Source: Acidobacteriota bacterium
Lineage (GTDB): Bacteria; Acidobacteriota; Vicinamibacteria; Vicinamibacterales; UBA8438
Assembly: GCA_009861545.1 (NCBI GenBank)
Contig: VXME01000006.1
Location: 1-38,253 of the forward strand
Direction: 5' to 3'
DNA length: 38,253 bases
Part shown: piece by piece, positions 16,057-26,813 of the stretch
Layout: every line of letters begins with the position of its first letter
Position numbering within the stretch: the first letter of the stretch is position 1
Position numbers and translations under genes: made by a program
Notes under the pieces: generated by a model
What the model was told of the DNA's origin: nothing
Database searches by the model: none
Seen by the model: only the letters and a program-made list of their open reading frames with translations

Positions 16057-16086
16057 CGGTTGTCTCCTTGCGGGCGCGGCGGCCCC

Positions 16087-16173
16087 GACTGGGCGGCGCT
16101 CCGCATCCACGCCCGCACTCCCGGCGTCGACCACAACCGGAAGCTGTTGCTCGACCGCATCCTGCGCGCGCGC
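16087..16173 (+). pseudogene. relic fragment of the membrane-protein gene found intact at 23083
   Basis: Read on the plus strand, 16087-16173 gives DWAALRIHARTPGVDHNRK followed by LLLDRILRAR. The intact protein at 23083-25269 contains DWLALVDALRIHRRVPGID followed by RNRRLLLDCILRAQ. Apart from a four-codon gap (VDAL), 21 of 29 residues are identical, and the DNA matches closely too (GACTGGCTGGCGCTC against GACTGGGCGGCGCTC). Nothing of the rest of that gene is seen on either side. The fragment sits between the upstream end of the three-gene array and the DUF1552 terminator, so it marks an old insertion or recombination scar. Confidence 0.75.
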
Positions 16174-21918: not shown

Positions 21919-22323
21919 TCAGGTGGGCGGACAGATCACGGGGATCGTCTCGCGCTTGTTGCGACGATAGACCTGGAAATCGGTACGGTCCACCGTGATC
22001 ACCGGATGATGCGGGTGCAACTCGCTCATGCGGATGAGACAGATGTCGGCCAGATCCGGTCGTCGATCCGCGTAGCGGTCCGCCAGTTCCGCCATCTTGA
22101 CCAGATGATCGCCCGCGACGAAGGCGCTCTCGATGAGTCCTTCTCGAATCATGGCGAGGACGAGCGGCACGCTTTTCAGGTGGAAGGCAGTCTCCGCCAG
22201 CACGGCTTCGCATGTCAGGAGCGGCTTCGTTACCCGCGCGGCCAGGCCCACCGCCCAGTCGTGATAGCGATCCCTCCGGTTGGCGAACGCCACGAGAAAT
22301 CCGGTGTCGGCGATGCCGATCAT
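21919..22323 (-). CDS. PIN-domain toxin, VapC-like (134 aa)
   Basis: PIN-domain toxins are magnesium-dependent ribonucleases that cleave tRNA or rRNA when their antitoxin is lost. The protein opens IGIADTGFLVAF (Asp6). Glu44 lies in CEAVLAETAFHL, Asp90 and Asp93 in RPDLADICLIRMSE, and Asp112 in ITVDRTDF. These are the expected acidic residues of the active site, at normal spacing. The ATG at 22323 overlaps the antitoxin stop by four bases (ATGA, 22320-22323), the standard toxin-antitoxin arrangement. The frame is complete, so the pair is probably functional. Confidence 0.88.
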   Translation of the reverse strand: MIGIADTGFLVAFANRRDRYHDWAVGLAARVTKPLLTCEAVLAETAFHLKSVPLVLAMIREGLIESAFVAGDHLVKMAELADRYADRRPDLADICLIRMSELHPHHPVITVDRTDFQVYRRNKRETIPVICPPT

Positions 22324-22532
22324 TCCGTGGCGAATCCCTTTCGGCTCGAGAGATCGCTCGGCCCGCTCACCGTGCCGGCAAGGCGCATGAACGAGCGGTT
22401 CTCAGCGTTCTCGCGCGCCTTCTCGAGTTGCTCGCGGATGATCTCGCCCTGCGACACGCCGGTCGTCGTCGACGCGTGCTTGAGCCACGCGGCAAGCTCC
22501 GGCGTAAGACGCACAGTGATTGTATGACTCAT
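22320..22532 (-). CDS. ribbon-helix-helix antitoxin of the VapBC-like pair (70 aa)
   Basis: ATG at 22532 starts MSHTITVRLTPELAAWL, the strand that pairs with its dimer partner in ribbon-helix-helix proteins. Helices follow (LAAWLKHASTTTG and SQGEIIREQLEKARE), with the G-x-S-x-G/E turn before helix B (TTGVSQGEI). The C-terminal tail (about residues 50-70) would wrap the toxin. A six-codon longer frame upstream is unlikely, because the operator palindromes cover the start. It would repress its own promoter together with the toxin. Confidence 0.87.
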   Translation of the reverse strand: MSHTITVRLTPELAAWLKHASTTTGVSQGEIIREQLEKARENAENRSFMRLAGTVSGPSDLSSRKGFATE

Positions 22533-22547
22533 ACGCCAGAAGCGTAT
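22522..22547 (-). promoter_or_regulatory. overlapping palindromes at the antitoxin start, putative autoregulatory operator
   Basis: GTATGACTCATAC (22522-22534) is a perfect palindrome with 6-base arms. ATACGCCAGAAGCGTAT (22531-22547) is a second inverted repeat with 6-base arms and a 5-base centre. They share one GTAT/ATAC half-site and cover the ATG of the antitoxin gene. Regularly spaced half-sites are what ribbon-helix-helix dimers bind cooperatively. Confidence 0.6.
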
Positions 22548-22572
22548 CACGGTGCGCGCCGATAGATGATCG

Positions 22573-22842
22573 TCGCCGGGGCATATAGGTCCGGCTGTAT
22601 CCGTTGCGGCCGTTCGTCATCGTGAACGTGCCGTCCGCCAGCACGGACGCCGTCAGCCAGTGGTCCTCGCACTCCTCCGACTCGCCGGTCGGGGCGACGA
22701 TGAGTGTGGCGCCGCCGCCCTCGACGTCGACCCAGTAGATGTCCATCGTCTGGGCCATTACGGGTGCACCCGCGCCGATCATCCAGGTCAGGGCACAAGC
22801 CGGTGCGCCGATGAAGCCGCATCGTGTTCCGGCGTGCCGCAT
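22573..22842 (-). pseudogene. MBL-fold hydrolase pseudogene with internal deletion
   Basis: The frame starts at ATG 22842 with a signal peptide (ending APVMAQT) and then MDIYWVDVEGGGATLIVAPT, the N-terminus of exported metallo-beta-lactamase-fold hydrolases. These should continue into the first beta strands and an HxHxDH zinc site. Instead, after PTGES the sequence jumps to EECEDHWLTASVLADGTFT and TNGRNGYSRTYMPRR, which is the end of the same family. The whole catalytic middle, probably 200 or more residues, is missing. The stop is also lost: the frame runs on into the toxin-antitoxin promoter. The family identity is from memory of the pattern, not a search. Confidence 0.7.
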
Positions 22843-23082: not shown

Positions 23083-25269
23083 ATGGTTCGAATGAGCGCG
23101 CCTGTCGGCTGGATGACCACGGGGCTCGGATGCATGTCGCTCGGCGTCTTCCTGGCCCTGTCGGCGTCCATCGAGATCGGGATGGCAATCGTCCTGCTCG
23201 GCTCCGGCGCGGTCGGCTTTGCGCTGGGCCTCACGCGGTCCCACGCCGCCGACCGCGCGCTCGTGGCCGAGGTCGAGCGGCAGATTGACGAAAAGCGCGC
23301 CCGGGACCTGCGCGAGGCGGAGGAGCGGTGGCGCGCCGAGGGCGTCTCACCGCTCGAGCAGTCCTACCGCGCGCTCCTGCGGCCGGGCGCTACCGAACGG
23401 ACGGAGCCGCTGCCGGAGTTGGACGCGCGCCTTGGAGAGCTGATCCAGGCCCGCTGCGAGCGCGTGTGGCAGGGAATTCGGGAGCGGCGGTACGTGTACG
23501 AGAAGAACGGGCGAATCGTCGGCCTCGATGGGGGGGCAATCTTCGCCGAGCTTCGTGACGTCGTGAAGGAAGTCGCCCGTTTGTACAAGCGGGACGGAGA
23601 CCGAGCCGAGCTGGAGGTACGCATCGGCGACGTCGCGCTGAGCGCCCGTTCCGTCATTGCCGAGCTCCTGCAGGCAGTGCGGCAGACACCGATTGTGGAC
23701 GTCGCCGGCTGGACCGTGGCGGAAGTCGTGACGGCGCTCGAGCGAGTGCAGAAGGTGCGGCATCTCTACCGGAAGGTCACGCCCTGGAAGCACTACGTGT
23801 CGGGCCTGACGCTGGGCTTGCGCATCGTCATGGGCGCCAACCCGGTCACGCTGGCAGCCTGGACCATCGGCCAGGAGGCGGCCACGCGGATCGGGGGACA
23901 TGTCCTCAAGACGTACGGCGAGGTCTGGTTGAAGGAGCTCTTCGAGGGGTCCGTTGCCCTGGTCTATCTGCGTGCGGCGCGCATGTACGACCCGCAGCAG
24001 ACGTATCGGAGCGCCGACTGGCTGGCGCTCGTCGATGCGCTTCGCATCCACCGGCGCGTGCCGGGCATCGATCGGAACCGCAGGCTCCTGCTCGACTGCA
24101 TCCTGCGCGCGCAGATTCCAGACGAGTTCGCGAAACTGGCCCTGCTGCGCGCCCTCGCCGCCGACGCCGAGCCGGACCTCACACTGACGCCGACGGTCGA
24201 CCTCGCGTCGTTGGCGCCGGCGCAGCGACGCGCGGTCGCCGACTGTCTCGCCGCGATCCTGCAGAACATGCACGGATTGAACGAGAAGCAGGCCAGCGAG
24301 GAGATAGAGGCCATCGAGAAGCGGCTGTCGATCAGCTTGCCGCGCGACGAGTGGAGCGGCGGCGCAAGCCGTGCGGAGGTGCGGATCGACGCGGGTCTCG
24401 TCCGGCTCGCAGAGTTGGCGCGCGACCGATGTCGACTCGACATCGAGGAGGCTCGAGACGCGCTCGCCGGGAGTGTGTTCGCGGCGGCAGCGACAAAGCG
24501 ACTCGGTGGCGTTGATGCGCACCGGGCACGGCTGGACCAGGTGCTGACGATGGTCTTCGACGGCGGTGACCGCGATGGGGTCTCTTTCGCCACGGGTGAA
24601 CGATACCTTGTCGATCCGCTGCGCGTGCTGGTCGGCGATCCTCTGGCAGAGCCGCTGGCCGCGTCCATCGCGGATCTGATGGCCTCCGAAGGCCCGACGG
24701 GCTGGCAGGTCGACCACGACCACCTGGTGCTGGACAACGTGTCCGTGCTGCTTCCCGACCGCAAGCAAGTCGAAACGCTCTGGTCGAAGTACCTGAAGGC
24801 GGTTGAGTCCCGACTGCGCGGTCGCCTTCTGTACGGGAAACTGTCGACCGTCCCGCCGGTGTCGGCGCCGACGGTCCTGCGGCAGATCGGCAGCCAGGAG
24901 TTCCCGGCGCGCGATGACCGGACTGCCGCGCCCGTTCCGCCTCCCGCGCCTTGGCCGGTGGCGGTGTTCGAGGCGGAGGACGGCAGCGCGCGGGCGCGGT
25001 GGGTGTTGCTGTTCATCGACCGCGTCGTTGTCGGCGTTGTGCCGAGGCAGGAACTCGCGATTGACGTTGGGGAGCCGCGGACCCATCGGAAGGAAGATGT
25101 CCGTTTCGGGCGCTGGTCCGGCTACGTGACCGATTCCCTCGTGCTCCATTGCGGTGAGCAGCGTCTGACTATCGAAGGCCCTGTGATGGGGAGCTTCATC
25201 GGCCACTTCGGACCCGTGCTCCAGGCGCTGGACCTCGATGCCGGCGCGCTCGAGGTCATCAACCCATGA
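23083..25269 (+). CDS. membrane-anchored protein of unknown family (728 aa), coupled to an AAA/nuclease gene
   Basis: ATG at 23083 follows AAGGAG at 23067-23072; the frame is open upstream to 22660 but over the pseudogene. Two adjacent transmembrane helices (about residues 9-28 and 30-50) anchor it. A charged, probably coiled-coil stretch follows (VERQIDEKRARDLREAEERW). The large soluble part has helical segments and a hydrophobic Gly-rich stretch at 237-272 (VSGLTLGLRIVMGANPV). A conserved-looking element, ADWLALVDALRIHRRVPGI, recurs as a relic at 16087. I recognise no catalytic motif. Its stop overlaps the start of the AAA-ATPase/nuclease gene by four bases (ATGA, 25266-25269), so the two are translated together. 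Confidence 0.8.
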   Translation: MVRMSAPVGWMTTGLGCMSLGVFLALSASIEIGMAIVLLGSGAVGFALGLTRSHAADRALVAEVERQIDEKRARDLREAEERWRAEGVSPLEQSYRALLRPGATERTEPLPELDARLGELIQARCERVWQGIRERRYVYEKNGRIVGLDGGAIFAELRDVVKEVARLYKRDGDRAELEVRIGDVALSARSVIAELLQAVRQTPIVDVAGWTVAEVVTALERVQKVRHLYRKVTPWKHYVSGLTLGLRIVMGANPVTLAAWTIGQEAATRIGGHVLKTYGEVWLKELFEGSVALVYLRAARMYDPQQTYRSADWLALVDALRIHRRVPGIDRNRRLLLDCILRAQIPDEFAKLALLRALAADAEPDLTLTPTVDLASLAPAQRRAVADCLAAILQNMHGLNEKQASEEIEAIEKRLSISLPRDEWSGGASRAEVRIDAGLVRLAELARDRCRLDIEEARDALAGSVFAAAATKRLGGVDAHRARLDQVLTMVFDGGDRDGVSFATGERYLVDPLRVLVGDPLAEPLAASIADLMASEGPTGWQVDHDHLVLDNVSVLLPDRKQVETLWSKYLKAVESRLRGRLLYGKLSTVPPVSAPTVLRQIGSQEFPARDDRTAAPVPPPAPWPVAVFEAEDGSARARWVLLFIDRVVVGVVPRQELAIDVGEPRTHRKEDVRFGRWSGYVTDSLVLHCGEQRLTIEGPVMGSFIGHFGPVLQALDLDAGALEVINP

Positions 25270-26813
25270 CCAGACGCAGACTCCCGATCGGGTTGCAGAC
25301 CCTCCGCGAGTTGCGCGAAGAGGACTGCTACTACGTCGACAAGACCGGCTTCATCGCCCGACTGGTAGACGAGGGCAAGCACTACTTCCTGTCGCGCCCG
25401 CGGCGGTTCGGCAAGAGCCTTTTCCTGGACACCCTCAAGGAGCTGTTCGAGGGCAACGAGGCGCTGTTCACCGGTTTGCACATCCACGACCGCTGGGACT
25501 GGTCGCTCCGCCATCCGGTCGTGCGACTCGACTTCGGTGCCGGACACTTCGGCGAGTCCGGCTACGTGCATACCAATACGATGGCGCAACTGGCGGCGGC
25601 CGGGCAGGATGCCGGGGTCACGGTAGGGCACGACACCGCGCCCGAGCGGCTCCGCGACCTGCTTCGGACGCTGCACGCGAAGACCGGCCGGCGCGTGGTG
25701 GTCTTGGTCGACGAATACGACAAGCCGATTCTGGACGCTCTCGATACGGCCGACGTCGCTCGGGCGAACCGCAACTACCTGCGGGGTCTGTACTCGACCA
25801 TCAAGTCCAGCGACGCGCACGTTCGCTTCACGTTTCTCACAGGGGTCAGCAAGTTCTCCAAGGTGAGCGTGTTCTCCGGCCTCAACAACCTGACCGACAT
25901 CACCCTCGATCCCTGCTACTCCGCAATCTGCGGCTATACCGAGGAGGACCTGGACGCGGTGTTCGCTCCAGAACTGCCGGGGCTGGACCGGGAGCGGGTC
26001 CGGGACTGGTACAACGGTTACAACTGGCTGGGGCCGGAGAAGGTCTACAACCCGTTCGACATCCTGCTGTTGTTCCGCCGACGCAGGTTCGCGGCTCACT
26101 GGTTCGAGAGCGCCACGCCGACGTTTCTCGTGGAAACGCTGTTCCGGCGCCGGGTCAGTACGCTGTCGCTGGACGGGATGCTGACGAGCAGCGAACTCCT
26201 CTCCTCGTTCGACGTGGAAGCCATCGCCACCGAGGCGCTGCTGTTCCAGACCGGCTACCTGACGATCAAGCACGTGCGGGACCGGGGCGGCGTCCGCCGC
26301 TACCGGCTGGGTTACCCGAACCGGGAAGTTCGGCAGAGCCTGAACGAGAGCCTGCTGCGGCTTCTCGTGCAGGATTCGACGCACCAGACCGCCAACAGCG
26401 ACCGCCTGTACGACCTGCTGGAGGCCAACGACTTCGCGGGGCTGGAGACGCTGTTCCAGGCCTTCTTCGCGAGCATCCCCTACGAGTGGTACACGAACAA
26501 CGACATCGCCGCTTACGAGGGCTACTACGCGAGCGTCTTCTATTCCTACTTCGCGGCGACGGGGTTCGACATCACGGTCGAGGATTCGAGCAACCGAGGT
26601 CGCGCGGACATGGCGGTGAGGTTCGGGGGCAACGTCTACCTGTTCGAGTTCAAGGTGGTGGAGCAGGCGACCGACGGCGCCGCGCTGGCGCAGCTCAAGG
26701 AGCGGGGCTACGCGGACAAGTATGGTGCCTCCGGTGAACTCATCCACCTGATCGGTGTGGAGTTCAGCAGGGAGACACGCAACGTGACCGCGTTCGAGGT
26801 AGAGACGGCTTGA
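25266..26813 (+). CDS. AAA-ATPase-like / PD-(D/E)XK nuclease protein (515 aa)
   Basis: This is the architecture of the AAA-ATPase_like plus PDDEXK_9 (DUF1703) family. Walker A is RPRRFGKS (residues 44-51) and Walker B is VVVLVDEYDKP with Asp149/Glu150. The sensor-like segment FTFLTGVSKFSKVSVFSGLN is characteristic. The C-terminal nuclease has Asp448 in RGRADMAV and Glu461/Lys463 in LFEFKVVE, the D...ExK site. All key residues are present, so both domains may be active. The family is widespread, multi-copy in many genomes, and its role is not established; defence or mobile-element functions have been suggested. Here it is translationally coupled to the membrane protein upstream. Confidence 0.92.
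   Translation: MTRRRLPIGLQTLRELREEDCYYVDKTGFIARLVDEGKHYFLSRPRRFGKSLFLDTLKELFEGNEALFTGLHIHDRWDWSLRHPVVRLDFGAGHFGESGYVHTNTMAQLAAAGQDAGVTVGHDTAPERLRDLLRTLHAKTGRRVVVLVDEYDKPILDALDTADVARANRNYLRGLYSTIKSSDAHVRFTFLTGVSKFSKVSVFSGLNNLTDITLDPCYSAICGYTEEDLDAVFAPELPGLDRERVRDWYNGYNWLGPEKVYNPFDILLLFRRRRFAAHWFESATPTFLVETLFRRRVSTLSLDGMLTSSELLSSFDVEAIATEALLFQTGYLTIKHVRDRGGVRRYRLGYPNREVRQSLNESLLRLLVQDSTHQTANSDRLYDLLEANDFAGLETLFQAFFASIPYEWYTNNDIAAYEGYYASVFYSYFAATGFDITVEDSSNRGRADMAVRFGGNVYLFEFKVVEQATDGAALAQLKERGYADKYGASGELIHLIGVEFSRETRNVTAFEVETA

Follow-up and report, generated by a model that had tools for sequence, protein, structure and literature searches.

Does a membrane protein gene that overlaps the gene of an ATPase-nuclease form a dedicated defence system with it, or have two independent genes come to lie side by side? 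The question is raised by a locus in the window, by which we mean the whole 38,253-nucleotide stretch of Acidobacteriota DNA that was analysed (contig VXME01000006.1). Our best reading is that the pair is a juxtaposition at the level of one genus, probably co-transcribed, rather than a widespread system. We refer to the 728-aa membrane protein as P1, to the 515-aa ATPase-nuclease as P2 and to the window's own genome as G000. The genus was sampled by four species, G000-G003, and g4 denotes another genus that includes G019 and G013. The features of the window are as follows.

23083..25269, plus strand: P1, 728-aa membrane protein with an N-terminal two-helix anchor, a helical core and a C-terminal PH-like beta domain (~622-728)
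25266..26813, plus strand: P2, 515-aa AAA-ATPase_like (PF09820) + PDDEXK_9 (PF08011) protein of the DUF1703 family, catalytic residues intact
25266..25269, plus strand: ATGA overlap of the P1 stop and the P2 start
22568..22842, minus strand: metallo-beta-lactamase-fold gene reduced to a remnant by an internal deletion; G001 and G003 have it intact
22320..22550, minus strand: RHH antitoxin-like gene (Pfam RHH_3/RHH_1 above cut-off)
21919..22323, minus strand: PIN-domain toxin-like gene (Pfam PIN above cut-off)
16081..16173, plus strand: remnant (~31-35 codons) of a second P1 copy, at a site with a truncated or broken P1 in G001 and G002

The sequence-only reading, which had proposed the two-gene system, gave both open reading frames, their lengths and the ATGA overlap exactly. 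Read by eye, AAGGAG precedes the P1 start (ATG at 23083), and GAGG lies ~10 nt ahead of the P2 ATG, within the 3′ end of P1. Since P1 lies directly ahead of P2, the two genes would probably be co-transcribed and translationally coupled. The toxin-antitoxin pair and the pseudogene that had been noted beside them are also real. The former is a VapBC-like RHH/PIN pair at 21919-22550, antitoxin gene then toxin gene with a 4-nt overlap, and the latter is the metallo-beta-lactamase-fold gene, which has lost ~760 bp internally so that its ends join at ~22678-22687.

Judged by its domains, P2 adds a member to DUF1703, a family already known. It matches PF09820 in its N-terminal part (E 4.4e-60) and PF08011 in its C-terminal part (E 1.5e-22), both above the gathering score, and it has in common with the family the domain order, nuclease motifs I-IV, lineage-specific expansion, and the Walker A variant RPRRFGKS and Walker B DEYD that have been described for it (PMC1913061). 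Expansions of DUF1703 with the AAA + PDDEXK_9 architecture are likewise already described (PMC6387759, PMC1913061), and such genes occur widely, with expansions in several bacterial lineages. The catalytic residues that had been reported as kept are all intact: Walker A is 44-RPRRFGKS-51, Walker B is D149/E150, and motifs I-IV of the PD-(D/E)XK nuclease are represented by E418, D448, E461, K463 and Q476. Among 70 aligned P2-type copies, Walker B and the nuclease E, D, E and K are present in every one and the Q in 69. P2 is an intact, strongly constrained protein with predicted ATPase and nuclease activity. What sets P2 apart from other DUF1703 copies is that its start overlaps, by ATGA, the gene of a membrane protein lying upstream. 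Of the 70 copies, 66 have no adjoining P1, yet they keep Walker B and the nuclease D, E and K. G000 has ~12 near-full-length P2 copies as well as fragments, P2-type genes are multicopy in many relatives also, and in these genomes, where the family is expanded, a member usually stands singly at some other gene's 3′ end. P2 is most likely a self-sufficient ATP-dependent nuclease.

P1 had been described as anchored by two N-terminal helices and as matching no family known to that reading, and both statements are borne out. The structure model has two hydrophobic helices at residues ~9-50 followed by a long charged helix, and none of the family libraries searched (Pfam, NCBIfam, PADLOC, PHROGs) gave a convincing match; comparison of the sequence with solved structures yielded chance-level matches only. 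At residues ~622-728 a PH-like barrel and helix are modelled, the criterion being a seven-strand barrel with a C-terminal helix, with pLDDT of ~77-90 over most of the domain. The likeness to PH-like domains is one of structure, at fair model confidence, with a best Foldseek E of 1e-3 and a VIA Z of up to 7.6, both borderline; a sequence match is absent, and the rest of P1 is at low pLDDT. AlphaFold models of the whole protein are poor outside the C-terminus and those of the core alone are worse, and we therefore propose no fold for residues 80-600. We infer that a two-helix hairpin anchors P1 in the inner membrane and that its body, mostly helical and ending in the PH-like domain, is presumably cytosolic. 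P1 would most likely be a scaffold or adaptor bound to the membrane, with no need of P2.

The distribution of the two genes bears most directly on the proposed system. Within a single family of Vicinamibacterales (Acidobacteriota), 11 of 28 genomes have P1, and searches of 193 genomes from the class and 396 from the phylum gave none outside that family; phages, plasmids and viral contigs gave no match either. Scanning contigs with the single P1 sequence returned nothing, while the P1 alignment returned six relatives in named contigs, which are Acidobacteria/Vicinamibacterales MAGs. Across these collections P1 is a membrane protein without a family, restricted to one lineage. Each of the four species sampled from the genus has it directly ahead of P2 at one place, site B, with a spacing of -4 nt in G000 and of +3 nt in G001-G003, where the N-terminus of P2 is different. 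This conserved order is a part of the two-gene proposal that stands. The expected pairing across unrelated genomes did not appear, adjacency being confined to one genus: it involves 4 of the 11 P1-bearing genomes and 4 of the 70 P2-type genes of the family genomes whose neighbours were read, one per sampled species. The sequence-only reading had itself held that membrane-protein homologues found mostly alone or with other partners would speak against it, and in 7 of the 11 genomes P1 does adjoin other genes. A lipase-maturation-factor gene adjoins it in G006, G019 and G013, and two family-less genes, or one of them, in G011, G026 and G023; in G008 it lies next to other genes again, in a genome without any P2. 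Because P1 and P2 are apart in most genomes, a dedicated two-gene defence system, although possible, is unsupported by distribution, and it is unsupported by co-evolution as well. Ten of the 11 P1-bearing genomes do contain a full-length P2 (Fisher p 9e-6), an association that is confounded, as three genera carrying both genes explain most of it. Within the genus, P1 is intact at site B and decayed at a second site, site A, where G001 and G002 have truncated or broken copies and the window has only the remnant at 16081-16173.

Genes of 233 aa and ~97-122 aa recur beside type II P1 (L041:6804-8116 and L044:4579-5888). They have no Pfam or NCBIfam match and are possible partners of P1.

Site B records different pasts for the two genes. 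In g4 (G019 and G013) a P2 orthologue, ~81-85% identical, sits at the same site, with the same metallo-beta-lactamase-fold gene on one side and the same ankyrin neighbourhood on the other, and P1 is absent; P1 was therefore either gained ahead of P2 in the genus or lost in g4. The P1-less order is at least as consistent with P1 having been inserted ahead of an older P2, in which case P1 would have come to lie directly ahead of one old P2 copy in a single genus. Chance insertion of P2 behind P1 is not preferred, because the P1-less P2 of g4 hints that P2 may be the older resident. Between G000 and G003, P1 is 47.9% identical with a dS of 0.85 and P2 is 87.4% identical with a dS of 0.44, while two flanking genes have dS values of 0.30 and 0.24. 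In the tree the P1 of the window groups with that of G008, and a tree that unites the P1s of the genus as a monophyletic group is rejected at a p-AU of 0.0046, a value only as good as the model, for eight sequences of which some have long branches. The P1 of G000 therefore looks replaced or separately acquired, and the evolutionary histories of P1 and P2 appear discordant. G000 is also unlike G001-G003 in its upstream region and in its P1/P2 junction.

Taken with the distribution, this makes us moderately confident that P2 is a self-sufficient DUF1703 copy and P1 an independent membrane protein, the two being juxtaposed in one genus. The reading that survives best beside it, which we consider possible but distinctly less probable, is a genus-specific module in which P1 tethers or restrains P2 at the inner membrane until a trigger such as entry of phage DNA or membrane damage frees it; a membrane-tethered nuclease is possible. 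The ATGA overlap or 3-nt spacing in all four species is consistent with such a module, as is the intactness of both genes, with dN/dS among the genus copies of 0.38-0.57 for P1 and 0.16-0.20 for P2. The best argument for a functional link is that two distinct P1 alleles, ~48% identical, are found ahead of the same P2, each ending within 4 nt of it. Against it stand the discordant histories, the many P1s without an adjacent P2 and P2s without P1, the lack of a P2 in G008, and the absence of a match for P1 or P2 among the models of PADLOC-DB v2, a library that covers systems described by 2023. Moreover, gene order around site B is conserved anyway, so the kept adjacency of P1 and P2 is weak evidence. 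A bolder form of the same idea, to which we give somewhat less credence still, is that P1 founds a family of membrane adaptors that recruit a DUF1703 ATPase-nuclease to the inner membrane in this genus, the P1 alleles being swapped while P2 stays, as in defence recognition modules.

A further alternative takes its evidence from the P2-type genes at large. These genes might be mobile or selfish elements the size of one gene that settle at gene 3′ ends, the coupling to P1 being one instance. In 46 of 67 cases the downstream neighbour of P2 is convergent, where the background pairs at the same loci (215 same-strand and 36 convergent) would give ~25%; orthologues are among these loci, which are therefore not independent of one another. 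Copies that are not orthologous have almost no flanking sequence in common, apart from a 3′ flank shared by those of G019, G013 and G026, and plasmids carry full-length homologues up to 59% identical. However, shared termini were looked for around the P2 copies and none was found, neither terminal repeats nor a transposase was seen, several copies occupy orthologous places across species, and the P1-less P2 of g4 suggests that P2 preceded P1 at site B. We regard this alternative as unlikely. Much the least probable is that P1 guards, or senses through P2, within a larger defence cluster that includes the RHH/PIN pair: the adjacency of that pair and the anecdotal occurrence of P2-type genes elsewhere beside PglW, type I-G Cas and sacsin/TmtA-like genes favour it, but the loci of genus-mates that were compared contain no match to the pair, and the remaining neighbours of P1 and P2 are cytochrome/HXXSHH and ankyrin genes.

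The juxtaposition of independent genes that we prefer can be set beside other contacts of P2-type genes, as P1 is not the only neighbour that overlaps such a gene. In L089 a 346-aa gene without a Pfam match lies upstream of a P2-type gene and overlaps it by 4 nt; in the neighbour clustering it falls with a type I-G Cas56g gene. In L093 the gene close upstream (<=30 nt) encodes a DUF4143 ATPase, and three more close upstream partners were found besides these two and P1. In G019 the site-B P2 orthologue overlaps by 1 nt a downstream gene whose product matches the PADLOC TmtA models across its ATPase region. This sacsin/TmtA-like operon resembles the window in the overlap and differs in its partner, a 2533-aa sacsin-like ATPase, and in the absence of P1. 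A literature search on TmtA/Tiamat found nothing. Stubs of the 5′ end of the sacsin-like gene lie behind P2 in G013 and G026; a candidate stub behind P2 in the genus of the window was rejected after comparison with shuffles. One DUF1703 copy is thus coupled to different partners by lineage, P1 in one genus and a sacsin-like ATPase in another. Site B is in effect a small natural experiment, in which one nuclease occurs with either of two highly divergent P1 alleles while its orthologues elsewhere have none, and it therefore makes testable whether DUF1703 nucleases act alone or through their neighbours.

Several other arrangements of P2-type genes were seen. In G019 the P2 orthologue, the sacsin/TmtA-like ATPase gene and a 914-aa SNF2/helicase gene stand in a row, the first two overlapping by 1 nt (L144:578-12494, contig C426), and this row looks a better candidate for a defence system than P1 and P2. 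Three loci belong to G000 itself. A tandem of three P2-type genes, the first truncated, is present at L084:5405-10180 (C102). At L078:661-7934 (C92) the series Cas8g, a third gene, Cas56g (type I-G CRISPR-Cas models) precedes a P2 paralogue by 561 nt, and a convergent gene with weak similarity to GajB comes after the paralogue. At L076:2228-8174 (C144) another paralogue lies 136 nt behind a PglW-like gene (PADLOC E 0), at the contig end.
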